In this document: positions 1,280-37,461 of the stretch, piece after piece
How the letters are laid out: every line of letters starts with the position of its first letter
Numbering within the stretch: position 1 is the stretch's first letter
IMG/VR virus record: IMGVR_UViG_3300009506_000092
Location: 1 to 40,130 of that record
Length of the DNA stretch: 40,130 nucleotides
Source of the DNA: a virus
Direction: 5' to 3' (one strand)
Made by a program: the position numbers and the translations under genes
Notes under the pieces: generated by a model
What the model was told of the DNA's origin: nothing
Seen by the model: only the letters and a program-made list of their open reading frames with translations
Databases searched by the model: none

Positions 1280-2145
1280 GCAAAGAGCAAAAAACACCGT
1301 CGGAGGAAATTCAACTGCTGAAAAAACTCGCTGAAATCCAGCGTGCGGCGAGCTACATAAAAAAGGGGAGGAAACAGGGCGTTTCATACACGTACGCTGA
1401 AGCCTCGGCGGTGATCAATGCCGTCAGGGCGAAAATGGATGAGCTAAACGTCAGGCTCGAGCCCAGAGATTCCAATTTCGTGATCTCCCAGGATCATCAG
1501 ACAAAGGCCGGGGTTGCCTGGTATCAGTGCGTCGCCACGATCAACTGGTGGTGGATCGATTGCGATACCGGAGCCGAGCGCGGCCCGTTCCCGTGGGTCG
1601 GGCATGGGCTCGATAGCGGCGACAAATCGCCCGGGAAGGCTGCAACGTACTGTGAAAAATTCTTTCTTTTGAAGGACTTACACATCCCAACGGACGATCT
1701 CGATCCGGACGCCTTTGTTGAAAGGGAGATTGCGAGATCAGGAGGCGTCACAAGGGCCCCCAGCGGCCAAGAGAACGGCCCGGTTGACGGGGGTACAAAC
1801 GGGTCAAGGCACTCCGATCCGCGGCCGCCAGCACGGCCCGGCGGGCAGGATTCTAGCAATTTCGAGCGATGCACGGCGGCCCAGCTGCACCGTCTAGACG
1901 ATCTGCTTGCGTTTGCAATGACGGTCAGAAACGCACAGGCGATCACAGCAGCACTAAAAAACGCGCTGGACGTCCAGGCGCCGGCGGGGAAGCTCAGCAA
2001 AAACCACGCCGGATCACTGATCGGCAGGGTAAAGGCCGCCCTGGCGCCACACGGATATGCTGAGGACCAGGCCCCGGCGAGATCTCCACAGAGCGACGAT
2101 GAGCTCGAGCAAATAATCGATGCGGCCGAAAGGGATGGGATTTGA
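1276..2145 (+). CDS. erf: ERF-family single-strand DNA annealing protein
   Basis: 289 residues. The N-terminal 150 residues show the ERF-family pattern: LAEIQRAASYIKK, then YTYAEASAVINAVRAKMDEL, a core of strands with WYQCVATINWWWIDC, and AATYCEKFFLLKDLHIPTDD near residue 140, which is typical of the family's end. These proteins form rings, bind single-stranded DNA and anneal complementary strands in phage recombination and genome circularisation. A Gly/Pro-rich linker (about 160-200) leads to a C-terminal helical domain with a hydrophilic, acidic end, as expected for host SSB or partner contacts. The ribosome site is AAGGAG at 1263, and the gene is coupled to both neighbours. RusA follows four genes later, so the two probably act together. 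Confidence 0.88.
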   Translation: MSKEQKTPSEEIQLLKKLAEIQRAASYIKKGRKQGVSYTYAEASAVINAVRAKMDELNVRLEPRDSNFVISQDHQTKAGVAWYQCVATINWWWIDCDTGAERGPFPWVGHGLDSGDKSPGKAATYCEKFFLLKDLHIPTDDLDPDAFVEREIARSGGVTRAPSGQENGPVDGGTNGSRHSDPRPPARPGGQDSSNFERCTAAQLHRLDDLLAFAMTVRNAQAITAALKNALDVQAPAGKLSKNHAGSLIGRVKAALAPHGYAEDQAPARSPQSDDELEQIIDAAERDGI

Positions 2146-2438
2146 TGAAAACTGAAGGGGAAAAACTTAAACAACTCGGCCTCAACCTGGTCGAGGATCA
2201 CAACTTCGATTTTGTGGCCAAGATGAGGGCAAAGGCCGTTGAGATTTGTCGGAGAAACGGGAGCGTTACGATCGACGATCTCCGCCGCTATTCCGATCTG
2301 ACCGGAATAACCCCAAACCACCAAAACGCATGGGGAACAGTTTTCCGCGGAAGACCATTCATCAGATCGAGAATGAAGCGATCCACATATGCCAGCAACC
2401 ACGCCAGGATGATCTCCGTTTGGGAAATGGAGGACTAG
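2145..2438 (+). CDS. Small phage protein, putative winged-helix
   Basis: 97 residues. The ATG at 2145 overlaps the ERF stop by one base (TGATG); a TTG one codon earlier is also possible. The sequence NGSVTIDDLRRYSDLTGI, then NHQNAWGTVFRGRPF, is a pattern common in uncharacterised phage replication or recombination modules, and the N-terminal helices plus the short helix-turn-helix region suggest a DNA-binding fold. The protein ends in WEMED, and the junction with the next gene is an 18-nt sequence also found at 39043-39060. Confidence 0.7.
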   Translation: MKTEGEKLKQLGLNLVEDHNFDFVAKMRAKAVEICRRNGSVTIDDLRRYSDLTGITPNHQNAWGTVFRGRPFIRSRMKRSTYASNHARMISVWEMED

Positions 2439-2639
2439 ATGACCGATGAACAACTGCACCAGGAGATCAAGAGGCGGTTTCATCGCGGGTGGTTCTCGTC
2501 GTCCCAGATCAGAGATCTGGATTTCAGGCCGAAGCAAAGGCTTATCGCGCTGAACAGAAAGGGGCTTGTTGATGCGTCGATGTCAACCCCTCAGTCTGGC
2601 GCGATTGCCTGGAGGGCAAACTACAGTGACAACGACTGA
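2439..2639 (+). CDS. Small hypothetical protein
   Basis: 66 residues, starting directly after the TAG of the previous gene with GGAGG eight bases upstream. EQLHQEIKRRFHRGWFSSSQI followed by RPKQRLIALNRKGLVDA resembles a short helix-turn-helix or winged-helix core: two helices, then a basic helix and a strand. No family can be named. It is sandwiched between two other small HTH-like genes. Confidence 0.65.
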   Translation: MTDEQLHQEIKRRFHRGWFSSSQIRDLDFRPKQRLIALNRKGLVDASMSTPQSGAIAWRANYSDND

Positions 2640-2868
2640 TCGAATAATCGAGCATCTGAAAAAGACAAAGGCCTGGAAAACGAAACACCAGATCGCCAAA
2701 GCCCTCGATTTGCCGGTCGAATCGGTTTGGGTCTGCCTGGTGGCGCTTTGCAGGTTTTGCAGGGTAGAGGTTAGGGGGCCCGGGCCCGTGTTTAAATACA
2801 CGAACCGCAACCCGTTGCACACCGGATGGGAGGAGGCCAAGCGTGCACTTGAGGAGTCGATCGGATGA
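2626..2868 (+). CDS. Small winged-helix-like DNA-binding protein
   Basis: 80 residues from a GTG at 2626 preceded by GGAGGG nine bases upstream, overlapping the previous gene by 14 bases. The frame extends further left, but without a ribosome site. RIIEHLKKTKAWKTKHQIAKALDLPVESV (residues 6-34) has the layout of a winged helix: a first helix, the KHQIAKAL turn-helix, then the VWVCLVALCRF recognition helix, followed by a wing (RVEVRGPGPVFKY). The stop overlaps the RusA start (ATGA). It may regulate the module or assist DNA binding. Confidence 0.7.
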   Translation: MTTTDRIIEHLKKTKAWKTKHQIAKALDLPVESVWVCLVALCRFCRVEVRGPGPVFKYTNRNPLHTGWEEAKRALEESIG

Positions 2869-3293
2869 CAGGGATTAGTTTTTTCGTCAGGGGAACCCCA
2901 GTCCAAGAGGGAAATATTACCCCATGGGGGACGCACGCCGAAAACAAACGAAAGCGAGGGCAAAAACGCGGAAGGCTGGACGATTGGAGGGGCGCAATAA
3001 GGTCTGGGTTCATCGCCGCCGGCGGGGTACTGAATTATTCCGGGCCGGTTTCTGTCGTGATCCAATTCATACTGCCTGAACCGAAACACATACCAGCAAA
3101 CAGGGAGAATCGCCCGACGGTGAGGCCAGATCTTGACAAGCTGGCAAGGGCCGTCCTTGATGCCCTGACCGGTGCGGCCTATAAGGATGATTCACAGGTT
3201 GTTGTTTTGCATGCGACAAAAGCCTATGGATGCCACCCCGGAGCGACGATCGGCGTTAATGGTGGGGTTGTGGCGACCAAAATATGGATGTAA
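2865..3293 (+). CDS. rusA: RusA-family Holliday junction resolvase
   Basis: 142 residues. The RusA signature is visible: RPDLDKLARAVLDALTG at residues 88-103, followed by YKDDSQV at 106-112. Asp89, Asp91 and Asp108/109 are the likely metal ligands. N-terminal strands (ISFFVRGTPV, then PVSVVIQFILP) match the family's start. RusA proteins act as dimers that cut four-way junctions symmetrically in a divalent-metal reaction. In this phage it would resolve intermediates made by the ERF annealing protein. It is coupled to the upstream gene (ATGA) and is of near-usual length for the family (about 120-140). Confidence 0.9.
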   Translation: MTGISFFVRGTPVQEGNITPWGTHAENKRKRGQKRGRLDDWRGAIRSGFIAAGGVLNYSGPVSVVIQFILPEPKHIPANRENRPTVRPDLDKLARAVLDALTGAAYKDDSQVVVLHATKAYGCHPGATIGVNGGVVATKIWM

Positions 3294-3669
3294 TGATCTG
3301 AGGGTGGGGCGTCCGAAAAAGGGGATACATTGTCAGGTGCCATCGTACCCGGTAGACAAACAGGGGCATCCATTGCCACCAATCGGGCACAGTGACCGGG
3401 ACGGGAATTGTAGGCCATGGCGCCTCACCGATTGCAGCGTTGAAGCCGAAACGATCTCAAGGCTTGACCCTATCGGCGGAAACCATCCTGCGCCAAGGCG
3501 CGGAACCCTGGGAAACGGATCACGAATATTTGACGGCCAGTGTTTGAGCGGTTGCCTTCATGTTGCGGCGATCTTTGCTTGGCCGTCACTGGATTGCAGT
3601 TTTTGCGAAGTCTGGAAAGGGAAAAGATATGGAGCTAAGCGCGCCGGTGGGGGCCGGCGGAACGAATAG
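3259..3669 (+). CDS. Cys-rich small protein, possible metal-binding domain
   Basis: 136 residues if the ATG at 3259 is used, giving a 35-base overlap with rusA; a GTG at about 3306 would avoid it. Cysteines are frequent: YGC, HCQ, GNCRPW, TDC, then GQCLSGC and DCSFC near the end, including a CxxxC and a CxxC pair. HCQVPSYPVDKQGHPLPPIGH and WRLTDCSVE look like structured loops and strands. The Cys spacing suggests zinc binding, perhaps related to HNH-like folds, but no complete HNH motif is clear. The start is uncertain, and the 3' end overlaps the endolysin start by about 40 bases. Confidence 0.5.
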   Translation: MVGLWRPKYGCNDLRVGRPKKGIHCQVPSYPVDKQGHPLPPIGHSDRDGNCRPWRLTDCSVEAETISRLDPIGGNHPAPRRGTLGNGSRIFDGQCLSGCLHVAAIFAWPSLDCSFCEVWKGKRYGAKRAGGGRRNE

Positions 3670-4306
3670 AGGTGGTGACGTTTTGCAGGTTCAGCGCGGA
3701 CTAAATGAGGCAATGCCTTTCGATGGGGTTCCGCTGGTAATAGACGGTGTTTGTGGACCGAGGACAATTGACAAGATTGTTTTGTTTCAAAGGCGTTTTA
3801 TGAACCACCCCGACGGCAGGATCGATCCGCTCGGCGCAACACATCGCCGGATAAATCGGATCATCCCACCGGAGGGCTGGCGGGGAACGGAAAGGTCGTG
3901 GAAACAGAGCAAAAAGGAAAGCTCACTGCACCCCGCACTGTTGACGGTTTGGAGGCGGATAAAAGCGAGACTCCTTGAAATTGGTCACCGTCCGATCATC
4001 CACTATGGGTGGAGATCGATCCGGTGCCAGGCGGATATTTACCGTCGCGGGCTTTCTAATGTGAAATTCAGCTTCCACAACGTCCAAAAAGACGACGGAA
4101 CCCCAATAAGCTACGCGATCGATGCTGTTGATGAAAGGTATTATTGGGGGCCACTGTCAGGACCGTTTTTTAGGGACCTTGGCGAACAGTGTGATTTCGA
4201 AAATCTTTACTGGGGCGGGCATTGGAGGCCCAGCCCTGATAGCGCACACCTGCAACTGCTTCCAAACTACAAACTAGCAGAGCTCCGGAAATTGGCCGGG
4301 CTTTAG
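3629..4306 (+). CDS. Endolysin: peptidoglycan-binding domain plus M15-type peptidase
   Basis: 225 residues from the ATG at 3629, preceded by GGAAAGGGAAAAG; the longer open frame upstream has no ribosome site. Residues 17-65 (VLQVQRGLNEAM, then GVCGPRTIDKIVLFQRRF) match the peptidoglycan-binding type 1 pattern. Residues 120-212 fit an M15/VanY-like zinc peptidase: HYGWRS (125-130), SFH with H150, AID with D165, and SAHLQL with H207 are the expected zinc ligands and neighbours. It would cut peptide cross-links during lysis. It has no signal peptide, so release would depend on a holin. It is the last gene of the rightward array and its TAG overlaps the stop of the convergent holin-like gene. Confidence 0.88.
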   Translation: MELSAPVGAGGTNRGGDVLQVQRGLNEAMPFDGVPLVIDGVCGPRTIDKIVLFQRRFMNHPDGRIDPLGATHRRINRIIPPEGWRGTERSWKQSKKESSLHPALLTVWRRIKARLLEIGHRPIIHYGWRSIRCQADIYRRGLSNVKFSFHNVQKDDGTPISYAIDAVDERYYWGPLSGPFFRDLGEQCDFENLYWGGHWRPSPDSAHLQLLPNYKLAELRKLAGL

Positions 4307-7762: not shown

Positions 7763-9457
7763 CTAGTTTCCGACACATGCGAAATATCCAGAAACGATTG
7801 CGTCGGAGCAAACGTTGCTTGAACAGTCTGAATTTTGCAAACATGGTTGCATTGCGGCTAGGTTTGTACAGATCCTTGGATCTGCCGAATAGCCACCCGT
7901 TGGACCAGTGTCAGGGGTTAGACATCGCCGCACCCGATAAAGATTTCCGTTGCACCCACATGCACCGGACAGGCATTGATAATCGGTTTTACATTCCTCA
8001 CCGACCGCCTTTCGGCAATCGGACAGATCTTCAGAGCAATTACAGTCCCGGCCTATCTGAATTTCGAGCAACTGAAAGTCTTTGATGGTCGGATAGATTT
8101 CCGGCGCCGCGGCCGGCGAAACATTCCACGGCCACTTGCCGACCGGATCGTCACCGATCGCATAGGTTGGAGGCGGATCCTTTTGGTAGGTGGTGCTGTA
8201 TGTCTCATTACCGATTCTGAGTATTGCTCTCTGTGTCATCAGCGTGCGATCTTTTTCGTCAACCTTCTTATCACCGTTTAAATCCATGAAATCAGCGACT
8301 AGCGGATTTGACTGTCCCCCGAAGAACGGGTTACCTGAGAGTTCGACACCGTCCGGGCATCCATCCCCGTCTGTATCTGCGTTGTTGGTCTGGGTTCCGG
8401 ACACGTTGGTTTCGTAATAGTCGGTGAGCCCGTCTCCGTCTGTGTCGGTCCCTGCTACGAATTCCTTCTGATAGAGTCGGAACAGGTGCTCTCCGAGATC
8501 GTTTTTTGCGAAGTGGTTGAAGTGTCCGATCGTGCACGCAGTCAGATTATTAGACGCCGTGCATAGCGTCGGGTCTGTCGTTAGATATGTCGATTCCTCA
8601 TATCGTCCGAAAGCAACAAAATTTTCTGCAAGAAACTCAACGTAGATGGCGCCGTAGGTTGCAGATTCCGTCCTGATATAATCGTAAAATTCAGAATACG
8701 GCCCGCCCCAATTGCTGTTTGCTGTTTCCCCCCAGCAGTCCGGGAGCGTACTTGGGAGATAGGTCCAGTACTGATCCTGACTCCCATCGTTGTGGTACCC
8801 CCTTGGCTCAGACAAAACAAACACCGGGGCGTTAACGTTTGGGTTTGCGCTAATTGCGCTTGTTATGTCACTGATAGATGCAGTGATTCCGTCGAGCCAT
8901 GCGTCCCATGTCGCCGTGCTCCCGGCGTCGAATCCGATACAACTCAAGGCCAAATCATTTGAGGAGAAATTTAAAACTACACCTGCGATTTCGTTTGCCC
9001 CCGCGGCGGCGATTTCTGCGACAACATACGCAACTTGGCTCCCGGCCTGACAGGTTCCGCCTGAAACGTTGCAGATTGGCCTGCAATGATCTCCGGCCGG
9101 AATATTTGTGAAACTGCCGGCGCACGCTAGGTCGCAAAGGGGCTTGTTGTTTTGTGTGTCACAGGCCGGCCATCCTGCCGGGCACGTCGAGTTGGGCGGC
9201 CCGCTCCCATCGGTGCATTCGTCCGGATACGGTGCTCCACCGGCTGGCGTACCTCCGATTCCATGGCCGGCTAGCTGTGCTAATCGTTGCACAATCCCCT
9301 TGTCTTTTGACCACGGAATCGAATTCCCGGTGAGCCCGTTTCGTGGGACACCTGTCATCATCGACGCCCCGAGCACCTTCCAGCAAGGCGGAGATGAGCA
9401 ATTAGCAGAAGCGTCGAACGAAAACAGCAAGAAGAGAAAAAAAGCGATCAGTCTCAT
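7763..9457 (-). CDS. Secreted modular protein: SGNH-hydrolase-like domain, Ca-binding repeats, Cys-rich tail
   Basis: 564 residues from the ATG at 9457; a longer open frame lacks a ribosome site, and Met here begins a clean signal peptide (MRLIAFFLFLLFSFDASA). Residues 26-330 fit an SGNH/GDSL layout: GAS (Ser32) in block I, NFSSND (Asn167, Asp168) in block III, and GHFNHF (His312/315) near the end. Residues 338-372 hold two DTDGDG repeats of thrombospondin-3 type; 392-403 (DLNGDKKVDEKD) is an EF-hand/dockerin-like loop. The last 90 residues have paired-Cys repeats (CKTDYQCLSGAC, CLQNSDCSSNVC) typical of secreted myxobacterial proteins. An exported product among tail genes is odd; it may act on envelope or exopolysaccharide. 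The hydrolase call is moderate. Confidence 0.75.
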   Translation of the reverse strand: MRLIAFFLFLLFSFDASANCSSPPCWKVLGASMMTGVPRNGLTGNSIPWSKDKGIVQRLAQLAGHGIGGTPAGGAPYPDECTDGSGPPNSTCPAGWPACDTQNNKPLCDLACAGSFTNIPAGDHCRPICNVSGGTCQAGSQVAYVVAEIAAAGANEIAGVVLNFSSNDLALSCIGFDAGSTATWDAWLDGITASISDITSAISANPNVNAPVFVLSEPRGYHNDGSQDQYWTYLPSTLPDCWGETANSNWGGPYSEFYDYIRTESATYGAIYVEFLAENFVAFGRYEESTYLTTDPTLCTASNNLTACTIGHFNHFAKNDLGEHLFRLYQKEFVAGTDTDGDGLTDYYETNVSGTQTNNADTDGDGCPDGVELSGNPFFGGQSNPLVADFMDLNGDKKVDEKDRTLMTQRAILRIGNETYSTTYQKDPPPTYAIGDDPVGKWPWNVSPAAAPEIYPTIKDFQLLEIQIGRDCNCSEDLSDCRKAVGEECKTDYQCLSGACGCNGNLYRVRRCLTPDTGPTGGYSADPRICTNLAAMQPCLQNSDCSSNVCSDAIVSGYFACVGN

Positions 9458-9458
9458 T

Positions 9459-9959
9459 TTAGGCCGCCAGCGTTGGGGTGATTCCGTGGTTTGCGTAGAA
9501 GTCCAAAACGTATTGCGCCCGATCGGCCCAGTCTTGGATCGGTATCGCGGCGCCTTGCTGCATTGCGATCTCGGTATCGTTACAAAGAAACGACCACCCA
9601 AACCACATGATGCAAATTTCGTCGGCAGTTTCGGAAACAAGATGGCATCTCAGCCCACCGTCGGACGAAACCGCCCCGAGCGACAACACGTCGCCGGCGG
9701 ACTTGCCGCCCGGCACAACACCATGGTTGTCTTTGGCCCAGGCGAGAAAATACGCGCCGAGGTTCACGAATCCTTGCAGCCCAGAAAGCCTTTTTCCGGC
9801 CGCCCTGGTTTCGTCGGCATCGGTTAGTTTTTCCTCGCCACCACCACAACCAACGGTTTCGATGTTGACCGGGCCTAGACGTAGCGTGCGATCACCGATC
9901 GCCATATCTGCCGAAATCGCAACCCCGTCCTGTTTTTGTTCGTTCGAAAGCCAGTCCAT
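9459..9959 (-). CDS. Hypothetical protein between tail spike and secreted hydrolase
   Basis: 166 residues. The ATG at 9959 has GAGGAAAAG upstream, so the open frame before it (17 residues) is not used. The sequence has two Trp-rich amphipathic stretches (ICIMWFGWSFLCNDTEIA, ADRAQYVLDFYANHG) and a Gly-rich loop (VGCGGGEEK). No signal peptide or known domain is visible. It ends one base before the ATG of the secreted hydrolase-like gene. It may be a tail accessory protein or chaperone for the upstream spike. Confidence 0.65.
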   Translation of the reverse strand: MDWLSNEQKQDGVAISADMAIGDRTLRLGPVNIETVGCGGGEEKLTDADETRAAGKRLSGLQGFVNLGAYFLAWAKDNHGVVPGGKSAGDVLSLGAVSSDGGLRCHLVSETADEICIMWFGWSFLCNDTEIAMQQGAAIPIQDWADRAQYVLDFYANHGITPTLAA

Positions 9960-9970
9960 TCTTTTCCTCT

Positions 9971-12118
9971 TTAGGTCGCCGATACGATACGGACGTTTCG
10001 TAACACGCAAGTGCCGGTGAAGGTGTCAAGCGCGTCGGCTCCAAGCCTTTCGATCTTCAAAGAAAGGTTTTGGTAGTTGTCCGCGTGCGCCGCCGGAATT
10101 ACCAGATATGTCTCCTGCTGGACAAATGCCGCGACGGTCCCCTGAAAGGTGTGGGTTATGCCGGCCACAACCTCGGCCGCCGCCGCAACAACTTCACCGT
10201 TTGCCGTTGACGTATAGGACGCTTGCCAACGCACGGCCGTTCCGGTTCCGGCCACGGTACCATACCAAACCAGCTTCAACGTCACGGCTCCGTCTGAAAT
10301 ATGGTTCTGGTCAAATTGCATCTCCCATGTGGTTTCGTTGGTCGCGCCGTCTACATATCCGCGGCCAATAACGGGCCCACGCGTAACCTTGGTTGTGGCG
10401 CCGTCGTCGATTTTTAGGCAAAACATCGACACATTGCCGCCCTTTTGATACCCAACCCTTCTGGTCAATGTCGGCGAATATCGAACCGAGCGACGTAACA
10501 CACCGCTTTTGTCCAATTGATCGTAGAAACCGAAGTTTTTGATGTAGTTCGCGTTGGCAGCGTGCGGCACGATGTCAACGCCATTGACGCTTATCGTGCA
10601 ATCGTCGATGCAGGCGGCCGGGATCGCGTTTGCGTTTGTGGTCCCGCTAAGGTCAACCCCGTTTGTCGTCCCGGCGCCGCCGCCGATGATATCGCAACAA
10701 CGCAAAACCCCGGTTTCGTTCGACGTGCCCGTAAACGCAACACCAGTTGAAGTTCCGCTTGCCGGCGACGGTTTTACCTGGAAACGCTCCATCACCATTT
10801 CGGTTGCCATGGTGACCAGTGTTGTTGAGGTGGCAGTGTTCGACAGAATACATTTTTTCCGATCCATTCCACGAACCGAAACGCCGGGCTTATGGACGAT
10901 CGTTTGCCCGCTGTAGTCTGCCGGCGCACATTCGACGATCATGCCGGCGCTTGCGGCGTCAATTGCATCCTGTGGGGTTGGAAACGGCCTCGATCGATCG
11001 TTAATGATACCGATCGCGGTACTTCCGATCGTCGGGTCAACGTAAACGGTCCCCGACGCAAGCGCGTTATCGAAGGTGCTGTAGAGGCGAGCAAACGTCC
11101 CACCTCCGGAGATCGCCCCGGTGCGTTTCGTCTGCTGATCGTACCGAAAAACATTGCTGGCCAACGGTGCTGGGTTAAAGTAGGCGATTGCCCCGATCCA
11201 TGTGCAACCCTCGGAGCAAATTTCGCCGCCGACGCTAACAGCCTTGCCGCCGGTGCCGGTGATCGAAAAAACCGTGTCCTTTACCCATACGCGGTTGTTT
11301 GCCGCAAGGCCGCCGCCCTTGAGCCCGATCCCGGCACCCGCGCTGACACCAAACAGATCGCAACCCACGATGCACTTTTGGGCCTCGGTTGACAGTCCGG
11401 CGATCGACGAAGAGTCGGCGAGAATGGTGTCACCGGCGCCAGTGACAACGCCAAGGCAATTCACAACCTTTGATGTCAAATGGGCTGTCCCGGATCCGAA
11501 ATCCAGCAACGTTGCGGTGAAGCCCGAGGCGATAGTCCCGATGAACGCGATCCCGTCGTATATTGCGTTTTCCGCCACACTGACAACGGATCCGGTTGCG
11601 CCAAGCGCAAAGGTAAATGTGGTTTTGCGTGGGATGAGGGCCTTGATCGAAACACCGTCTTTCCATGTCGTTGGCATGGCAAACGAGCCCGGGAGGCAAA
11701 CGATCGTTTCGCCTGAGCTTGCGGCCGTCATGGCGGCCTGTGGGGTTAGAAACGGGCGGCCGATGTTGTCAACCTCGGCCGTACCATCGTTGCCAGATCC
11801 AGAAACCCAAAGCACCTTATCGGTTGCGGCCCAAAGATCGGCGAGCCTTCGTGCATCGGCTCCGGTCAAAAACCCATTGGCGCCGCCGGCGATGGCCGCC
11901 GCATGTAGCGATCCGCCGGCCTGGTCGCCGTGGGCGTGGATGTGATCTTGCCGCACAAATGAATCAGCGGAACCCTCAGCGTTGGCGGATCCGATCGTTG
12001 AAGGCACGCCGACGGACAGCTTGTCACTTCCAGATTGTGGTTTGTGGGTTTCGGCATGCGCCCCCGGGATCCCGCCACCGACGCAAACGGCCGCCCTGTC
12101 TCCGTACAGATCAGCCAT
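9971..12118 (-). CDS. Tail spike/fibre with two beta-helix modules
   Basis: 715 residues. After a short virion-anchoring start (GIPGAHAETHKPQSGSDKLS and DHIHAHG, typical of fibre attachment regions) come two related modules. Module one has NIGRPFLTPQAAMTAAS near residue 118 and module two DRSRPFPTPQDAIDAAS near residue 376. Each is followed by short repetitive strands of a right-handed beta-helix of pectate-lyase type, as in phage depolymerase spikes. The C-terminal 150 residues (ISDGAVTLKLVWYGTVAGTG onward) look like a jelly-roll receptor-binding or trimerisation head. It lies with other fibre genes downstream of the gp47-like gene. Polysaccharide binding or cleavage is inferred; no catalytic residues can be named. 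Confidence 0.8.
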   Translation of the reverse strand: MADLYGDRAAVCVGGGIPGAHAETHKPQSGSDKLSVGVPSTIGSANAEGSADSFVRQDHIHAHGDQAGGSLHAAAIAGGANGFLTGADARRLADLWAATDKVLWVSGSGNDGTAEVDNIGRPFLTPQAAMTAASSGETIVCLPGSFAMPTTWKDGVSIKALIPRKTTFTFALGATGSVVSVAENAIYDGIAFIGTIASGFTATLLDFGSGTAHLTSKVVNCLGVVTGAGDTILADSSSIAGLSTEAQKCIVGCDLFGVSAGAGIGLKGGGLAANNRVWVKDTVFSITGTGGKAVSVGGEICSEGCTWIGAIAYFNPAPLASNVFRYDQQTKRTGAISGGGTFARLYSTFDNALASGTVYVDPTIGSTAIGIINDRSRPFPTPQDAIDAASAGMIVECAPADYSGQTIVHKPGVSVRGMDRKKCILSNTATSTTLVTMATEMVMERFQVKPSPASGTSTGVAFTGTSNETGVLRCCDIIGGGAGTTNGVDLSGTTNANAIPAACIDDCTISVNGVDIVPHAANANYIKNFGFYDQLDKSGVLRRSVRYSPTLTRRVGYQKGGNVSMFCLKIDDGATTKVTRGPVIGRGYVDGATNETTWEMQFDQNHISDGAVTLKLVWYGTVAGTGTAVRWQASYTSTANGEVVAAAAEVVAGITHTFQGTVAAFVQQETYLVIPAAHADNYQNLSLKIERLGADALDTFTGTCVLRNVRIVSAT

Positions 12119-27920: not shown

Positions 27921-29509
27921 CAAAGCTCCGTGAACCTGGCAAGTGTCACCAAAACACGTTCCGATGTGAAACCTTTTATGGGTTTTTTTGTCAACCTGAC
28001 CTCACGGCGCCCACCAAGGGCCCGGTGGTTGAGGTGGGCGAACCTGTACCCCTTCGTCGGTTTTATCGCACCGCGGATCACGATATCGGCGGCCTTGACT
28101 GCGTTTCGGACCGGCGCCCCGTGGCCGGCCTCGGCCTGGAGGACGACTTCCGCTAGCATTTTCAAGTCCTTACTGTTCGAGGCAACGATACTAATAACGT
28201 TCTCCGTTCCCCTACTGATCCCGTCAGCAACAACGAGCTCAGCCCGATCGCGGCTGGCCTCCATTGGCAAATAGGACGATTGCCCGCCGACCTTTGCACC
28301 TTTGGCGAGATCGCCGATCGCCTCATGGGATGCAACCCTGCGCACCAATTGATCGCCGGAGCCGGCGAACTGCGTTGCGATCGGCACCCTGGCCTCGGCC
28401 TGGTCGGCCGCAAGCTTCCGGAGGCTTCCCGACGAAAAAAACCGCCCAACGGTCGTTAGTTCGACGGCCTTTTGGGCGTCAATTCCTCCCAGCTCATCCA
28501 CGGTTCTTTTTTTCCTGTCCGGATCGCTTCGGCCCAGGTCGCCAGAATTCGAGAACGGGCGATCTCCGGATGCTGCGACCTTTGGCGCCTTGAGGCCCTT
28601 CACCCTTCCGGCACCATCGTAAAACCGCCTTGAGGCTGCATCGGCGCCCTTGCTGGCGGCCGGTGATGTTGACCAACCAGTGTCGGGTCTGGCGACCCTT
28701 GGCGGTTTGTTTTTTTCCTCAACGATCGGTGGCGACGTCTCGACGTCCAATCCTTCTGACTCAACATCCCTTTGGGTTAGCGAAACAACACCGCACCTGC
28801 ATTGATGGCCGTTTGGCGGATACCAGGTGTTCCAAACCGGGCTGTCTGCCGCAAAGACCTTTTGATCCATGGCCGCATGATCGGGCCTTACCCGATCGTC
28901 TCCAACTGTGACGTATTGCCAAAACGGCCGGCCGCGTTTCACGCGCTGGAGTTGATCCCACCGGCCGCGCTGGTAGCTTCCGATCACATTGTTGCGGAAC
29001 ACGACATCCGCATGGGCCTTGCTCATGTCGGGGACCAGTCGGCGGATCTCCTTGACCACGCTTGCCTGGGGTTCCCCGGTTTCGATCGCGTTTAACAACG
29101 CTGAGTGTACCTGTGTGATCGTATATTGGTTGGCCGTTCCAGCAATCGAGAAGGCATCTTGCTTGTATCTGTCCTGCAGTTTTTTGAAATCCGCCGGCCT
29201 CATGATTTTTTTGCTTTTGAAAAAATCAACTGCCTCCTGAAATTGTACCGACGTCCAATTGGCAAGGGCATTCCCGGCTTCTTTGCTGTCCACCTCCAGG
29301 CGGCCAAGGAGATCGGCCAAAAACGGCTCCTGATAAAGGGCCTTGATCAGCTCCGGCGCCTTGGTGGTCAAAAGACTAAAGATCGTATCCGATGCAGCCT
29401 CAAGGCTAACCGAGCTCTCGACGTGGTTGGCTATAGCTTCCGTGAGTAAAAGCCGATCCGGTTTGCTATTTCTAATCCCCCTTGCGGCTAGCGAAGAGGG
29501 ATCGCCCAA
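27920..29509 (-). CDS. Head morphogenesis protein (Mu gpF / SPP1 gp7-like) with C-terminal extension
   Basis: 529 residues from a TTG overlapping the portal gene end by 22 bases; no good ATG exists before residue 100, and the ribosome site is weak. The gp7/F core lies at about 120-250: VVFRNNVIGSYQRGRWDQLQ, FWQYVTVGDDRVRPDHAAMD, SPVWNTWYPPNGHQCRCGVV. It is a minor head protein that helps portal and scaffold assembly. A charged linker follows, then about 180 extra residues (SHEAIGDLAKGAKVGG onward, ending RALGGRREVRLTKK, TSERVLVTLARFTEL). Toxin-like RNase domains are known at this place in related proteins; that assignment here is only a guess. Confidence 0.85.
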   Translation of the reverse strand: MGDPSSLAARGIRNSKPDRLLLTEAIANHVESSVSLEAASDTIFSLLTTKAPELIKALYQEPFLADLLGRLEVDSKEAGNALANWTSVQFQEAVDFFKSKKIMRPADFKKLQDRYKQDAFSIAGTANQYTITQVHSALLNAIETGEPQASVVKEIRRLVPDMSKAHADVVFRNNVIGSYQRGRWDQLQRVKRGRPFWQYVTVGDDRVRPDHAAMDQKVFAADSPVWNTWYPPNGHQCRCGVVSLTQRDVESEGLDVETSPPIVEEKNKPPRVARPDTGWSTSPAASKGADAASRRFYDGAGRVKGLKAPKVAASGDRPFSNSGDLGRSDPDRKKRTVDELGGIDAQKAVELTTVGRFFSSGSLRKLAADQAEARVPIATQFAGSGDQLVRRVASHEAIGDLAKGAKVGGQSSYLPMEASRDRAELVVADGISRGTENVISIVASNSKDLKMLAEVVLQAEAGHGAPVRNAVKAADIVIRGAIKPTKGYRFAHLNHRALGGRREVRLTKKPIKGFTSERVLVTLARFTEL

Positions 29510-31020
29510 TCCAGTGACTTTTTTTTTGAGCCATCATCGGCAAGCGCGATCCAGCGATCGCCGGCCCAGGCAAATTTCCGGCCGGCGCATTGGCGAGTGA
29601 CCACAGCATAGCGCACACCGTTTGCGTTGGCCTCCTGTTCGGCGTCCTCGATCTCATCCTCTGTCGGCGAGCTTTGATCCTCTGGCTGTTGGCCCGTTGT
29701 GGGCGCCGGGGCCCTTCCACCAACCGTCGGCTCATCGTCCTGTGGGGGTGGTATCTCGTGTGTCTCGTAAAGGTGGCTGACGGGGATCTTTAGACCCATG
29801 CCGGCAAGCTTCACATGTCGATCGGCCAGCGCCCCCCTGTCGATGGATTCCTGGGTTGCCAGGGTCACATATGGGACCGGGTAATCATCGCCAAGGTTGA
29901 ACCTGACGATCGGGGTCATTAGATACCTGCGGTAAGATTCGGCGATCCTCCTCGCATCATCCTCGGCAAATAGCGATTGCTCGCCCTTCTGAACCTCGCC
30001 CAGGCTCCTTGCACCACGATCCGGCGCCTCGGTGGTCATTGTTTGACCGAGGATCGCCTTGCTGATTTCAGCGTTGCACATGTCAATGTGCTTGGCGTGC
30101 GGAACCTCACCGCGAATAACGCTTTCGATCATCTCGATATTTGTACTATCCGGCAATACCGCCCCGCCGTCCTTGCCAAAATTTATGATCGCCTTCTTCA
30201 GCTCTTTTTTCTCTTCGTCCTGAGCCCCTGGCCCATAGGTCCCCTTTCGAAACGGGAGCCCATACCGCTCAAGGAAGATCCCCCAGTCGGCTACTGAAAA
30301 GTGCTTGAAAAGATACCACCACGCTACAATTCGCAAAAGTGCGGCACGGTAGAGAACGTCCGATCTGACCTTGTGTTTGTGGACGATCCATTGCCAATCT
30401 TTTAACTCTTCTAGGTTGCCGTCTGATTCAGGGTTCAGCCTGATGTGATCCGGGGGGATGTCCTCCTCGTTGGCATAGGGCCCAATCCAGCATCTCGACT
30501 GTGGCCAGTAATGCAAAAAGGCCGGAACAGCGATCAGATCGCGCCTTTGGTCACGCTTCCAAACAATTTGAGTGATCGAGAAACCGCGACCAATCCCATC
30601 TGCCACATCGAGCTGCGCTTGCTGAAATTCCGCGATCCCTGGCTCCCCGTCGGAGCCAAAAACAAGTGTATTGCACATGTCAGAGGCGACGATCGCCCTC
30701 TCCCTCTTTGACTGTTCGACGCCCTCTTTTTCCTCAACCGATGGGGTGATCTGCATCTGGCGTCCGGTCACCGCAAGCTTTCGTTTGCTCAGCGTTGCGT
30801 GTACGTGCGCATCCTCCTCGACAGAATGAAATACTTCATACATTCCCTGGGGGTCGCCATCATCTGCCCTGCGGAAAATGCTTCCAAGTTTTGCGGGGTT
30901 CAGCCTCTTGGAGTTGGTAACAAGATCATATGTCTGGCCCCATCCGCCGAGGATAACGCCGGGTTTTGGGTTTGGGATTGCTTGGCGCCTCGGCGGATAT
31001 TCGACGTATCGGCTGCTCAT
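29488..31020 (-). CDS. Portal protein (Mu gp29-like, DUF935)
   Basis: 510 residues, near the Mu length. Typical sequence: DGDPQGMYEVFHSVEEDAHV, HATLSKRKLAVTGRQMQITP, FSITQIVWKRDQRRD, LRIVAWWYLFKHFSVADWGI, LERYGLPFRKGTYGPGA and LGQTMTTEAPDRGARSLGEV. It forms the ring through which terminase packs DNA and to which the tail attaches. The C-terminal 80 residues are Pro/Gln/Asp-rich and likely flexible. The ATG overlaps a possible 25-codon ORF (ATGA). Confidence 0.93.
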   Translation of the reverse strand: MSSRYVEYPPRRQAIPNPKPGVILGGWGQTYDLVTNSKRLNPAKLGSIFRRADDGDPQGMYEVFHSVEEDAHVHATLSKRKLAVTGRQMQITPSVEEKEGVEQSKRERAIVASDMCNTLVFGSDGEPGIAEFQQAQLDVADGIGRGFSITQIVWKRDQRRDLIAVPAFLHYWPQSRCWIGPYANEEDIPPDHIRLNPESDGNLEELKDWQWIVHKHKVRSDVLYRAALLRIVAWWYLFKHFSVADWGIFLERYGLPFRKGTYGPGAQDEEKKELKKAIINFGKDGGAVLPDSTNIEMIESVIRGEVPHAKHIDMCNAEISKAILGQTMTTEAPDRGARSLGEVQKGEQSLFAEDDARRIAESYRRYLMTPIVRFNLGDDYPVPYVTLATQESIDRGALADRHVKLAGMGLKIPVSHLYETHEIPPPQDDEPTVGGRAPAPTTGQQPEDQSSPTEDEIEDAEQEANANGVRYAVVTRQCAGRKFAWAGDRWIALADDGSKKKSLDWAIPLR

Positions 31021-31120: not shown

Positions 31121-31299
31121 CCCCGGGATCAACATGCTAATCACCCATGTTCGGCTCCATGTTCGTCTAACGTTGCGGTCATCTTTTCCTCCGTTTAGCA
31201 AAAATCGCCCCCGGGATCAACATGCTAATCACCCATGTTCGGCTCCATGTTCGTCTAACGTTGCGGTCATCTTTTCCTCCGTTTAGCAAAAATCGCCCC
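31121..31299 (-). repeat. Perfect 88-bp tandem duplication between terminase and portal
   Basis: Bases 31121-31211 recur without mismatch at 31209-31299 (period 88, 91 matching positions). The copy nearest terminase includes its last four codons and stop. Each copy holds a strong ribosome site (GGAGGAAAAG) before an ATG and a 13-codon ORF (MTATLDEHGAEHG). Identical copies indicate a very recent duplication or an assembly artefact. Confidence 0.92.
31229..31270 (-). CDS. 13-residue ORF with strong ribosome site, duplicated at 31141-31182
   Basis: ATG at 31270, preceded by GGAGGAAAAG, encodes MTATLDEHGAEHG and stops at TGA 31229-31231. An identical copy with the same ribosome site lies 88 bp further downstream. 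Such a short frame may be a leader peptide or the remnant of a gene whose 3' part was lost. The ribosome site is one of the best in the window, yet no longer frame follows. Confidence 0.3.
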   Translation of the reverse strand: MTATLDEHGAEHG

Positions 31300-32674
31300 A
31301 GTCACGACGGCTACCAATTGACTCAATATCCCCGGTCTTCAGTGGTGGGGCTGCATCTTCGGCAACGGCGATCGCTAGGCCGGCCGCCCAAAAGCGATCG
31401 GCGTGGCCGTCCTTTGTCCTTGGGGCCTCGAATCGCTGTTTCCCGAGATCGGTATATGTCCTTCTGACGGCATGCAGATCCTTTCTGACGTCCGGATCGT
31501 CGGGGATCCAAAAAGCATCTTCCTCTAGCGCATTCTTGAGTTTTGTTGCGATCTGGGCCGGTGTGTCTCCGGTGAAGTTGTATCCCTCAACACGCAGCTT
31601 TCCGAATCGCTTTTGCATTCGTTCGGTCATCTCCGTGCCGATTCCTGTTCGGTCAAGACCGGCCCGACGGCATAGCGGTATCAGGTCGCCGAGTTGCCTT
31701 TGTTGCACCGGAAGTGGCGTGTTTTTCAATGCGATCACCCCCCTTGTATGTGCAACATGGTTGCGCACCTCGTTGATCCAAAAAACGGTAAGATCCCTTT
31801 TGCGGCCGATGTCTCCGCCAAGGTAGAGCGGGCCCGCCGGGGCCTGGGTGTGGTCAAAAACGATCGAACACTCGGCATGCGTGCGCCTGTCAAGAAGCGA
31901 GTAGGGTAGCCACGAAAATGCCTCATCCAAAAATTGGCACATGTATTCTTGGGCGAAGGTTTCGGAATTGCCGGCAAGGGCTCTGCACTTCTCAATGTCA
32001 ACCGGATGGCCCTGGGAGCTCGCCTCCATGATATCAACGGAATGCCTCGACCATCCATCGGCGATAACGTCCACGGTCCTTTTGGCCAGGTCATTGACAT
32101 CGTTTGGCTGGTGGGCGCCGTTGTTTGTCCAAAGTGCACAATATTTGCCCTGGTTTCCATTTGGCGTCGAGATCACATGCAGGCAATATCCCCACGTTGT
32201 AACAGGGAAAACGGCCTCCCATATTTTCGCGGCGTCGTGGTGGTGGCCGAATTCGTCGAGAGTGACATTTCCGCTGCAACCGCGGGCAGTGACCGGATTC
32301 GCCGGAAGGCCGATCAGTCTTGATCCATTTGGAAAAACGATCGTTAGTTGCTTGTACTTGATCCCCTTGAAGTAAGGGTGGGGGATGTAACCCTCCTCGA
32401 TCGTGTAATCGCCGATCGCTAGCCCCATCACCTTTAGGTGGTTGGTGGCGTAGTCAATCGCCTCCTTGGCTCGCTCCTCGGAAATGCTCAGATAATACCA
32501 GCGCTGGCGTTTCACCATGAGCCGCTGGACAATCGACAGGGTTTCGGTGAACGTGATCCCGATCTGCCTGGCCTTGCAGATAATCTTCAGCCTATTGAAG
32601 TCCAGCAACCATGCGAGCTGATACCCAAAAAGCGCAAGTATTGCTGGAAAGCGGCCTTTAGCTTTCGCCACCAT
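31283..32674 (-). CDS. Terminase large subunit (Mu gp28-like)
   Basis: 463 residues. The ATPase half has a Walker A-like KARQIGIT (34-41) and Walker B NVTLDE (136-141, Asp140-Glu141). The RNase H-like nuclease half has LGGDIGRKRDLTVFW, an Asp-bearing first strand, and DGHADRFWAAGLA near the end, the usual last acidic residue. It packages DNA into the head through the portal and cuts it. The ATG overlaps the small subunit gene by 17 bases. It is somewhat shorter than the Mu protein. Confidence 0.92.
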   Translation of the reverse strand: MVAKAKGRFPAILALFGYQLAWLLDFNRLKIICKARQIGITFTETLSIVQRLMVKRQRWYYLSISEERAKEAIDYATNHLKVMGLAIGDYTIEEGYIPHPYFKGIKYKQLTIVFPNGSRLIGLPANPVTARGCSGNVTLDEFGHHHDAAKIWEAVFPVTTWGYCLHVISTPNGNQGKYCALWTNNGAHQPNDVNDLAKRTVDVIADGWSRHSVDIMEASSQGHPVDIEKCRALAGNSETFAQEYMCQFLDEAFSWLPYSLLDRRTHAECSIVFDHTQAPAGPLYLGGDIGRKRDLTVFWINEVRNHVAHTRGVIALKNTPLPVQQRQLGDLIPLCRRAGLDRTGIGTEMTERMQKRFGKLRVEGYNFTGDTPAQIATKLKNALEEDAFWIPDDPDVRKDLHAVRRTYTDLGKQRFEAPRTKDGHADRFWAAGLAIAVAEDAAPPLKTGDIESIGSRRDWGDFC

Positions 32675-33173
32675 ATGGGTCTTCGTCGCGCTGGTAGCGA
32701 TCCCACATTTCCCGTGTCCATTGCGGCTGATTATAAAGCGCGATCGCGGCGTTATAGACCTCGAGAGTCATCTCTTTTGGTGATGAAAGGTCGCACATCT
32801 TTGCGGCCGCCAGTTGTTGCGGAAGCGTCAACCCCTGGAGCTCCCAGATCGATCGAAGCACAGCATGCGCCGTGCGGTAATCCTTTTTGACCAGGGCCTT
32901 CGCATATAGGGTTTCGGCCTTGGCGATCCCTTCGTTGAGCATCATTTTACGCTCACCCCAAGAGTGCATATTTGGGATCTGTCTACGCACCTCCGAAAGA
33001 TATTTTTCGACCGTCCTGGTGTGGAGGCCATACTTGCCGGAACACTGCCTAATTATGTCGGCCTGTGGGACCCCACCGGTCAACATTTCGAAAATTTCGG
33101 CTTTGCGTTTTTTCTTTCGCGCCCGTCCTTCCGCTGAGTTATTGGCGACGGGCTTTTTTTGTTCGCGATCCAT
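32658..33173 (-). CDS. Terminase small subunit-like protein
   Basis: 171 residues. The N-terminal 70 residues (RKAEIFEMLTGGVPQADIIR, YGLHTRTVEKYLSEVRRQI) form a helix-turn-helix, and the rest is helical (GIAKAETLYAKALVKKDYRT, AHAVLRSIWELQGLTLPQQL), as in small terminase subunits of Mu-like phages that bind pac/cos DNA and stimulate the large subunit. It lies directly before the large subunit gene and overlaps it by 17 bases. Confidence 0.83.
   Translation of the reverse strand: MDREQKKPVANNSAEGRARKKKRKAEIFEMLTGGVPQADIIRQCSGKYGLHTRTVEKYLSEVRRQIPNMHSWGERKMMLNEGIAKAETLYAKALVKKDYRTAHAVLRSIWELQGLTLPQQLAAAKMCDLSSPKEMTLEVYNAAIALYNQPQWTREMWDRYQRDEDPYGGES
33121..33160 (+). terminator. Terminator-like hairpin on the plus strand, antisense inside terS
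   Basis: GCCCGTC (33121-33127), 19-nt loop, GACGGGC (33147-33153), then seven T (33154-33160). It has the form of an intrinsic terminator for rightward transcription, although no rightward gene exists here. It could stop antisense transcripts, or be a by-product of the KKPVANN codons. Confidence 0.35.
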
Positions 33174-33184
33174 ACCGGTCTATT

Positions 33185-34723
33185 TTACCCGATCCCCATG
33201 GTTTTTTTGTAGGCCGCCCATCCCCTGGCAAGCTTTGCGTCGGTGGCCATTGTCTTGACCCTTTTGCGCCACGGGAGATCGTCCCCTTGTCCCTTTTCTG
33301 ACAACGCCCATTGCAGATGCTCGAGAACGCCAAGCCTTTTTGCTAGGCGATCGATCTGCCGAAACCCGTTCTTTCCGAGCTTCCCACGCTGGCCCGCGAT
33401 CGCAACGATCAATGGGGCAGCCTGTGGTCCGCATCTCAGGGCCAGCGTTTCAAGGGTTCTGCTCGTCGCCCCATTGGCGCGTCCAAGGAGCTTGTGTTTT
33501 AGCGGCCGCCGCTCCTTGTCCCCCATGATGTCGATGAATCCCATGTAATCGTCAGTGAGGTTGCGTCTTCTATTGATACCGGCCCACTGCAGTGGGGTGT
33601 GGGGCGTTGGGGAAAATGCGTTTAGGGTGACGATCGCATAAAACCGCTCTGCAGAAAAACCGCGGGAGATGTCGATCTTTGAAAGTTTCCGGGTTGGCTC
33701 GAGCTCAACCGACGCCAGCGTTTCGAACCACTCGACAAAATCAGCGTCGGATTCCCCCGGAAGATCGAGAATCATATACATGCCAATGGATCCCATGTGT
33801 CCGTTGGCGAGCTCTATGATTTTTTTTATGTCGGCGGCCTTCAGTGGCTTTGCCACTGCCGCACGTATCCGCTCAGAAAGCCCATCGATTCCCGTTGAGT
33901 AGACCCGGCTTTTCTCGAACCCCGACGATAGGATTTTGGTGCTAGAGATATCGCGGGCCTGGTTAAACTTCCCGACCAGATCATAGGCATCCGAAATCTC
34001 CGGCCATCCGGAGTGCCTTGACGGATCGGCGCCAAAGGCCTTGACGGCGCCCTTGGTTTCTATGACGGCCTTGACGCAAAGATCTGTTGGGACTTCCCTG
34101 TATTTTTTCGTCCAGCCCAGGGCGCAGTAAAAGCACGCACGCTTGCACCCCCTGGCAACTTCAAGGCGCCTCACAAATGTTTGAACGCTGTCAACGCCCT
34201 CTTTGCTGCGCTTGCGCTTTTGATCGTAGAAGGGCCACTTTATCGTCGCTGAAACATCGTCAACATGTTGCCAGGTTGCCCGGTTGTCATCTTCGCTGAC
34301 ATAAATTCCTTGGATGTCCTTTAGCGCGCCCATGCGGCCTGAAAAAATTGCGTCAAGTGCTGCCGGAGCGGCCTCCTCACCGTCACCAATGCAGGCGAGA
34401 TCAAAGACATCCCTCAAGGGGGCGGGGTTGTAGGAAACAAGGCCACCACCGACAAACACAACCGGCCAACCGCGATCCTTCCGCCAGTATGGGATCCCGC
34501 GGTTCGCCAAAAGCCTGACGAGCTCATAGGCATGCTCCCACCAAAAAAGGCTCACCATCAGGACGTCAACCTTTTGCCATCGTTCGCAAAGATCAACGAC
34601 GTCGAAACCACGCTCAATGCAGGAATTCCTTACGATTTGACTTCCCTGGGATAGCGATCGTTTTGGCTCCTTGCCGGTGGCAGGTGATGCGCCGGCTCCA
34701 AAGCTGATAATACCGGCCTTCAT
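33185..34723 (-). CDS. Radical SAM enzyme with N-terminal B12-binding-like domain
   Basis: 512 residues. CKRACFYC at residues 193-200 supplies Cys193, Cys197 and Cys200, the CxxxCxxC ligands of the SAM-cleaving 4Fe-4S cluster. Residues about 45-130 (VDVLMVSLFWWEHAYELVRL, GWPVVFVGGGLVSYNPAP, DLACIGDGEEAAP) match the Rossmann-like B12-binding fold that precedes many such enzymes, but no DxHxxG cobalamin motif is present. Core strands follow (SIGMYMILDLPGESDADFVE). Members modify tRNA, proteins, lipids or small molecules. Placed directly before terminase and after Cys-rich microproteins, it may act on nucleic acid. The ATG overlaps the upstream stop. Substrate unknown. Confidence 0.88.
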   Translation of the reverse strand: MKAGIISFGAGASPATGKEPKRSLSQGSQIVRNSCIERGFDVVDLCERWQKVDVLMVSLFWWEHAYELVRLLANRGIPYWRKDRGWPVVFVGGGLVSYNPAPLRDVFDLACIGDGEEAAPAALDAIFSGRMGALKDIQGIYVSEDDNRATWQHVDDVSATIKWPFYDQKRKRSKEGVDSVQTFVRRLEVARGCKRACFYCALGWTKKYREVPTDLCVKAVIETKGAVKAFGADPSRHSGWPEISDAYDLVGKFNQARDISSTKILSSGFEKSRVYSTGIDGLSERIRAAVAKPLKAADIKKIIELANGHMGSIGMYMILDLPGESDADFVEWFETLASVELEPTRKLSKIDISRGFSAERFYAIVTLNAFSPTPHTPLQWAGINRRRNLTDDYMGFIDIMGDKERRPLKHKLLGRANGATSRTLETLALRCGPQAAPLIVAIAGQRGKLGKNGFRQIDRLAKRLGVLEHLQWALSEKGQGDDLPWRKRVKTMATDAKLARGWAAYKKTMGIG

Positions 34724-34958: not shown

Positions 34959-35258
34959 CTATGCCCTATGCCGGGAGCAATAGCTTTTCGCGGACACCAT
35001 CGGCGTGTCTTCGGCCGTTGGCGGATCTACGAAACACACACCCCAGCCCGGCTCACTTCCCCCGTCATAGTATCGGCAACCGTGACAGCGTGGCGATACC
35101 GGCGAGAATTCCCCACACCAATCACTTGGACGCATAATGGGAAACCTCCATATAACTCCAGAGTTAGGCGCCCGACGGCGACAATGGCCCCATTTTTCAT
35201 TTGTTTTCGGATCGATTTCTTCATTGGAAAAAAATTCGCAGTTTTCGCAGTTTTTCAT
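34959..35258 (-). CDS. Duplicated four-Cys protein
   Basis: 99 residues with two homologous halves: CENCEFF, WGHCRRRAP, SDWCGEF in the first and CHGCRYY, WGVCFVDPP, SYCSRH in the second. Each half has a CxxC, a WG-C and a final Cys, which suggests one metal site per half. Single-domain versions of this pattern are common in prophages, with no assigned function. It starts with an ATG that overlaps the stop of the 27-residue zinc-ribbon-like gene. Confidence 0.8.
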   Translation of the reverse strand: MKNCENCEFFSNEEIDPKTNEKWGHCRRRAPNSGVIWRFPIMRPSDWCGEFSPVSPRCHGCRYYDGGSEPGWGVCFVDPPTAEDTPMVSAKSYCSRHRA

Positions 35259-36780: not shown

Positions 36781-37461
36781 TTAAAACAAAACCAGCTGCG
36801 ATAACCTCGATATTGCCACGTTGCAGTAGTCGATGTTTACATCGACGCCTATAGCTTTTCGGCCGCAATCCATCGCCGCCCGTAGCGTTGAACCAGATCC
36901 ACAAAAAGGGTCAAGGATCGTTTCGCCAGGATTGGTAAATTGCTCTATTAGCTCCCTCATTAGCGACAATGGTTTTTGCGTTGGATGCTGCTTTTTATTT
37001 CTCTCGACCATCCATCGCCAGATCGCCGCCTTCCCTCCACCGTTCCATTCCATGTTTTTTCGTTTTGCGTGGAGGATCGCTATACCCTCAACCGCCTGTG
37101 CTGGACGATCGCCTGATAATTGTGGAGTGTTTGTGATCCTGTCCCAGATCCCGCCCCTAACATAGTTTTGATAATTTTCCCCTTGGATCTTTCCGAGCGA
37201 TTCAACTGGGCAAAACATCAAAACCCAAAATCTAGCCTTGTTTATTAACGCCTTCGCCAGCCCTCCGGGTTCATCGATCGGATCAAACTCAATTCCGAAT
37301 TCTTTAAGTCTTCCGGTCTTCGTTGTTGCCCCCGTGTGGGTTGTTCGATCATACGGCGGATCTGTGATCACGTGATCGACCTTTTCCAGATCCTCGCAGA
37401 TCGCAAAAAAATCGGCACAGTAAATGCCGATTCCGTCTTTTTGATAAATCGGATCCGTCAC
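36781..37461 (-). CDS. DNA methyltransferase (N6-adenine or N4-cytosine type)
   Basis: 226 residues from a GTG overlapping the previous stop. Catalytic motif IV is DPPYD (34-38); HPTQKP (159-164) and the SAM-binding motif DPFCGSGST (184-192) follow, so the order is the beta class. DPPY favours adenine N6. There is no separate target-recognition domain and no restriction nuclease nearby, so it is an orphan phage enzyme, likely protecting DNA from host restriction or marking it. Its target cannot be read from the sequence; GATC is very frequent in this genome, but that link is speculation. Confidence 0.9.
   Translation of the reverse strand: MTDPIYQKDGIGIYCADFFAICEDLEKVDHVITDPPYDRTTHTGATTKTGRLKEFGIEFDPIDEPGGLAKALINKARFWVLMFCPVESLGKIQGENYQNYVRGGIWDRITNTPQLSGDRPAQAVEGIAILHAKRKNMEWNGGGKAAIWRWMVERNKKQHPTQKPLSLMRELIEQFTNPGETILDPFCGSGSTLRAAMDCGRKAIGVDVNIDYCNVAISRLSQLVLF

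Follow-up and report, generated by a model that had tools for sequence, protein, structure and literature searches.

By definition, class B radical SAM methylases combine a cobalamin domain at the N-terminus with a radical SAM core, whereas class A methylases (RlmN/Cfr) need two further conserved catalytic cysteines (PMC9692996). MgmA (PDB 9ccb), a cobalamin-dependent radical SAM enzyme, is a glutamine methylase whose substrate is methyl-coenzyme M reductase (PMC11796369). In phages, ParBc genes are found beside the DNA carboxymethyltransferase CmoX, where the role of ParB was called unknown (PMC12783734), and relatives of the ParB/Srx family can show nucleotide-processing activity (PMC10853773). 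Our literature search returned no paper on radical SAM enzymes with DNA hypermodification in phages. A paper on thymidine hypermodification is said to have proposed a radical SAM step.

The window analyzed here is the whole of a 40,130-base IMG/VR contig, which encodes a Mu-type portal, a head maturation protease, and a capsid, as well as a contractile-tail sheath, baseplate, Erf, and RusA. A reading made from the sequence only had placed a radical SAM (rSAM) gene in this contig. Its coordinates were exact (Table 1); the strand was not, as the gene lies on the minus strand, and the plus strand has 13 stops across the same interval. The ORF starts with ATG and encodes 512 aa. The CxxxCxxC motif claimed by the sequence-only reading is present and lies inside the core domain, placing the protein in the radical SAM superfamily. 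Its description of the N-terminus as B12-binding-like was fair: the B12-binding match (PF02310) falls below the Pfam cut-off and the match to PF19864 above it, and the family model has a B12-type Rossmann domain and a TIM-barrel. The length of the frame (512 aa) and an alignment of 29 homologues, in which the cluster cysteines and further residues are invariant, put this gene beyond chance.

Along the minus strand, the genes follow the order N6/N4 methyltransferase, small ORFs, ParB-like gene, two Cys-containing small ORFs, rSAM, and then the packaging genes (terminase small-subunit position, terminase large subunit, Mu portal). The methyltransferase belongs to a cluster (c5) that is also found near rSAM in some other loci. 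The rSAM start codon lies within the stop of the preceding gene, and this ATGA overlap (34720-34723) predicts that rSAM is translationally coupled to the preceding 78-aa ORF. The 99-aa protein contains two tandem Cys units with resemblance to HiPIP. The coupling of rSAM to Cys-rich microproteins, which had been read as one hint of a modification, did not extend to its relatives: both ORFs are real, but neither has a homologue among 38 related loci.

Table 1. Coordinates of the rSAM gene, its domains, and its neighbors in the window.
Feature	Position	Strand	Evidence
B12-type Rossmann / radical SAM protein	33185..34723	-	ORF, Pfam, homologues, model
Radical_SAM_N2 / B12-binding-like Rossmann domain, aa 49-128	34340..34579	-	PF19864 1.8e-13; PF02310 8.5e-4
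CKRACFYC, aa 193-200, CxxxCxxC [4Fe-4S]/SAM motif	34124..34147	-	29/29 family members
Radical SAM core, aa 188-335	33719..34162	-	PF04055 (Radical_SAM) 1.5e-8, 35.5 bits, above cut-off
C-terminal helical region, aa 419-512	33188..33469	-	Alignment by eye and model
Small ORF, 171 aa, terminase small-subunit position	32658..33173	-	Weak HTH match; assigned by position
Terminase large subunit	31283..32674	-	PF03237 (Terminase_6N) 1.7e-14; PF17289 2e-9
Mu-type portal	29488..31020	-	PF06074 2e-80
N6/N4 DNA methyltransferase, upstream of ParB gene	36781..37461	-	PF01555 5e-26; cluster c5
ParB/Srx-like protein, 187 aa	35335..35898	-	phrog_620 1.9e-35; phrog_498 1.6e-32; ParB-family HMM 8e-45
Cys-containing small ORF, 78 aa	34720..34956	-	4-nt overlap with rSAM start; window-specific
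Cys-rich ORF, 99 aa, two HiPIP-like C-x2-C units	34959..35258	-	PF01355 3e-4; window-specific

With the single rSAM sequence of the window as query, no close relative was found in INPHARED (1e-5), and searches of plasmids, viral contigs, and genome contigs gave only distant TIGR03960 proteins of use. No PHROGs family matched rSAM, and scans by terminase and by the Cys-rich microproteins recovered no syntenic relative. Weak matches labeled "Bacteriophage sp." came from bacterial TIGR03960-TIGR03936-like loci and were rejected as relatives; their sole use was to bridge the alignment (A1), and through this bridge we reached locus L011 (E 4e-31) and then the family. L011 has the order ParB-like gene, rSAM, terminase-position genes, Mu-like portal, and head genes. 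Searching with an alignment of this pair yielded 17 IMG/VR loci, and the family alignment yielded 42, from which about 34 distinct IMG/VR contigs are rSAM family members by HMM. Two profile patterns, which cover the core rSAM clade only, had no match in 84,980 species genomes. Some database records deserve comment. L003, L004, and L012 ("Bacteriophage sp." and IMG/VR records) hold bacterial TIGR03960-TIGR03936-like pairs and are probably bacterial contamination or mis-called viral contigs, and L007 (MW495066, "Microcystis phage MaAM05") contains mqnC and ispG and is perhaps not a phage.

Rather than the Cys-rich microproteins, the constant partner of rSAM is a ParB-like gene. It belongs to the phrog_620/498 group and is located upstream of the enzyme gene on the same strand in every one of the 34 contigs that include upstream sequence (30 contigs when dereplicated at 90%). 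Since the loci were retrieved through the rSAM sequence alone, this association is not built into the collection. ParB adjoins or overlaps rSAM in 30 of those 34 contigs; the distance is 3.5 kb in L018, 1.4 kb in L041, 0.4 kb in L064, and 0.6 kb in the window, where two small ORFs part the genes. The ParBs of L019, L020, L051, and L060 were detected only with an HMM on six frames. In the loci checked, neither outgroup radical SAM genes nor control Mu-like terminases had a ParB nearby. We conclude that ParB and the B12-type rSAM form a real, conserved two-gene phage module. The sequence-only reading had proposed looking for its gene pair in other phages; rSAM does recur there as part of a pair, with ParB and not with the Cys-rich ORFs as the other member.

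Fusions of ParB to rSAM were not found in the family. One candidate, a 652-aa ORF in L051, was rejected as a wrong-frame call that holds another rSAM. The same locus (~2109-4067) has a second, distinct radical SAM motif, TGCAHNCKYC, straight after the family rSAM.

In the core rSAM clade, ParB ends in a C-terminal tail of 43 aa with the approximate consensus KDPNILVRLSFHPGxWLGKREEIxxxLEKMKKTYxCExKIEE. This tail was seen in about 17 contigs, all paired with rSAM and all from one clade, and in none of the ParBs of 15 control loci. Its mean identity is 0.44, compared to 0.26 for the ParB body (13 proteins, pairwise). The distances between tails correlate with the distances between the rSAM proteins (Mantel r = 0.40, p = 0.007), whereas the distances between ParB bodies do not (r = 0.17, p = 0.15). 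Distances between ParBs and between rSAMs are correlated across the family at large (r = 0.36, p = 0.0005). The simplest reading is that a docking tail may have been grafted onto different ParB bodies. The ParB of the window has no recognizable 43-aa tail, and any docking between the ParB and the rSAM of the window would therefore have to take another form.

The link between rSAM and terminase, first suggested by the window, is borne out across the family: a terminase large subunit gene lies within about 4 kb of the rSAM homologue in 25 of 35 contigs. These terminases are of unrelated types (gpA, Terminase_6, HK97), and the pair thus crosses packaging lineages. In L015, L016, and L017 (~9367-11228, minus strand), an uncharacterised convergent family, c7, replaces terminase downstream of the pair; L016 and L017 each carry it twice.

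The nearest sequence family is TIGR03960 (B12-binding radical SAM, NCBIfam; E 2.5e-15), with which the window rSAM has an alignable core and Radical_SAM_N2 in common. Nevertheless, the window protein should not be filed under TIGR03960, because it scores 56 bits against a curated cut-off of 462.3 and its gene is without an adjacent TIGR03936/DUF2344 partner (the neighbors are ParB and terminase; locus L006 has that partner). TIGR03960 proteins also have a terminal Cys motif that the window rSAM lacks, though the C-termini align by eye. In the phylogeny, the window rSAM is one of 18 family members that make up a supported set (99/96). All ParB-linked members come together in one weakly supported group (65/56), which is separate from TIGR03960 (100/98). 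TIGR03960 genes are located beside ribosome or RNase genes, a position that could indicate an RNA link; our literature search found no paper on TIGR03960, nor on DUF2344 with radical SAM.

We calculated AlphaFold2 models for the window rSAM (pLDDT 72.7, pTM 0.77) and for the family member in L026 (pLDDT 91.6, pTM 0.90). The closest solved folds are MgmA (3.8e-14), AprD4, MtaB, CysS, TokK, RimO, MiaB, and OxsB, and the closest predicted viral structure is an "Fe-S oxidoreductase" of Siphoviridae sp. ctdcr45 (A0A8S5QA32; E 1.5e-18, TM 0.63-0.70). As in class B enzymes, a cobalamin-type Rossmann domain, with its PF02310 match below cut-off, precedes the core. MgmA is the best solved structure by profile (1.4e-11) as well as by fold; however, the identity is 19% (TM ~0.5), and MgmA acts on a protein and has another genomic context. 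The methylthiotransferases MiaB, RimO, and MtaB resemble the family in the folds of both the N-terminal and the radical SAM domain, but the family has no conserved auxiliary-cluster cysteines and the window rSAM has no TRAM match.

Among the 29 aligned members, no cysteines other than the three cluster ligands are invariant. MiaB/RimO-type methylthiolation, which requires an auxiliary cluster held by three N-terminal cysteines, is therefore disfavored, as is RlmN/Cfr (class A) chemistry with its two additional catalytic cysteines. To our knowledge, AprD4 functions without cobalamin. Because the top fold matches include AprD4 and the RNA-acting MiaB, the N-terminal domain is no proof of cobalamin use, and since AprD4 has the same fold, the type of reaction remains a guess. 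Cobalamin-dependent C-methylation is the likeliest chemistry, at less than even chances.

The ParB of the window matches phrog_620 as well as phrog_498, a family of ParB-DNA methyltransferases, in the latter case over its ParB part. In 15 INPHARED loci with the same ParB, hand-picked for diversity, the gene fused or next to ParB is a recognized DNA modifier in seven. Psychrobacter phage Y8A has the order ParB-Mom-TerS-TerL-Mu portal (Mom PF25680, 1.8e-55); a TET-associated glycosyltransferase (TAGT) is found beside ParB in HHTV-2 (2e-30) and DelaGarza (1.9e-17); and ParB is fused to an N6/N4 methyltransferase in L070, L071, L073, and L075, with an extra C5 or D12 methyltransferase in L070 and L071. 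PAPS-reductase-like genes adjoin ParB in Bacillus phage 031MP003 (L081:3736-4851) and Rhizobium phage L338C (L082:4402-5478) and possibly represent further modification chemistry. Two fusions are to uncharacterised domains. In Streptococcus phage phiARI0468-4 (L083:2998-4086), ParB is fused to DUF4417 (PF14386, 2.4e-70) upstream of terminase, and by its position DUF4417 is another candidate DNA-modification domain. In Methanomassiliicoccales virus vir215 (L084:1303-2334, 3004-4176), ParB is fused to an uncharacterised domain of about 300 aa, and a different radical SAM gene (phrog_9298) is located three genes upstream. The slot had no recognizable gene in 4 of the 15 loci.

We consider it probable that ParB and rSAM constitute a phage DNA-modification module, which would carry out a radical modification before packaging. 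The enzyme class, the fold, the pairing with ParB, the usual site at terminase, the slot, and the co-variation of the tail are direct observations; that DNA is the substrate we infer from the ParB pairing and from a site where other phages keep their DNA modifiers. ParB, the proposed DNA-targeting subunit, would bind or slide along phage DNA and present it to the rSAM enzyme. The latter would cleave SAM reductively at its [4Fe-4S] cluster and functionalize a DNA base at a carbon, with C-methylation as the most plausible reaction and the cobalamin perhaps held in the N-terminal Rossmann domain. The enzyme would act late, before or during packaging of the genome by terminase, and our guess at the benefit is that the DNA may be shielded from host nucleases. 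The sequence-only reading had named phage DNA, tRNA, or a virion protein as possible substrates of a modification before packaging; the context (a ParB that partners Mom, TAGT, and DNA methylases) favors the DNA and gave no pointers to the other two.

The rSAM enzyme might instead modify RNA, either tRNA or rRNA, of the host or the phage in the course of infection, as MiaB and MtaB do, with the ParB/terminase region merely collecting accessory genes. Fold matches to MiaB and MtaB fit this idea, and phages do repurpose RNA-modification enzymes (PMC12783734); however, no Cys beyond the cluster is invariant, hence there is no auxiliary cluster for methylthiolation, ParB pairing holds in 34/34 contigs, and the same ParB accompanies DNA modifiers in other phages. 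We regard an RNA substrate as unlikely. An MgmA-like modification of a protein, be it terminase, capsid, or a small Cys-rich protein, strikes us as quite improbable: terminase and head types vary across the family while ParB is constant, and the Cys-rich proteins are specific to the window, even though the best structural match is a protein methylase (PMC11796369) and terminase is next to rSAM. Equally hard to credit is a cargo pair whose rSAM makes or consumes a small metabolite, such as a modified nucleotide precursor, and not polymeric DNA. AprD4, CysS, and TokK share the fold and act on small molecules, and ParB/Srx relatives are capable of nucleotide processing (PMC10853773), yet co-variation of the ParB tail with rSAM suggests that the two form a physical complex, and no precursor-pathway genes are constantly linked.

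The module could belong to a widespread, unrecognised form of DNA modification in phages, with a cobalamin-dependent rSAM that is guided by ParB and places a C-C bonded group directly on bases; we put this forward tentatively, with more doubt than confidence. If true, it would be the first B12 radical enzyme on DNA (we know of none earlier), and ParB would be a general, swappable DNA-targeting subunit for many chemistries. Through DNA modifications, phages defeat both restriction and CRISPR; the modifications are also a source of enzymes for biotechnology, and an rSAM in the slot would make DNA carbons accessible to radical chemistry. From this comparison, a general rule can be proposed: a ParB-like gene next to terminase would mark an enzyme of DNA modification. 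Such a rule gives testable roles to other uncharacterised neighbors, for example the ParB-DUF4417 fusion, and bears on the role of ParB domains beside phage DNA methylases (PMC12783734).

The window's ParB-like family is the same as that of the known ParB-coupled loci (Mom, TAGT, DNA methyltransferase, CmoX), and the ParB-Mom locus has the order ParB-enzyme-TerS-TerL that is seen in the rSAM loci. What differs is the enzyme, which is a methyltransferase, Mom, or a glycosyltransferase in the known loci and a predicted radical SAM protein here. An enzyme class without a known DNA substrate occupies the slot that in other phages belongs to Mom, TAGT, and methyltransferases.
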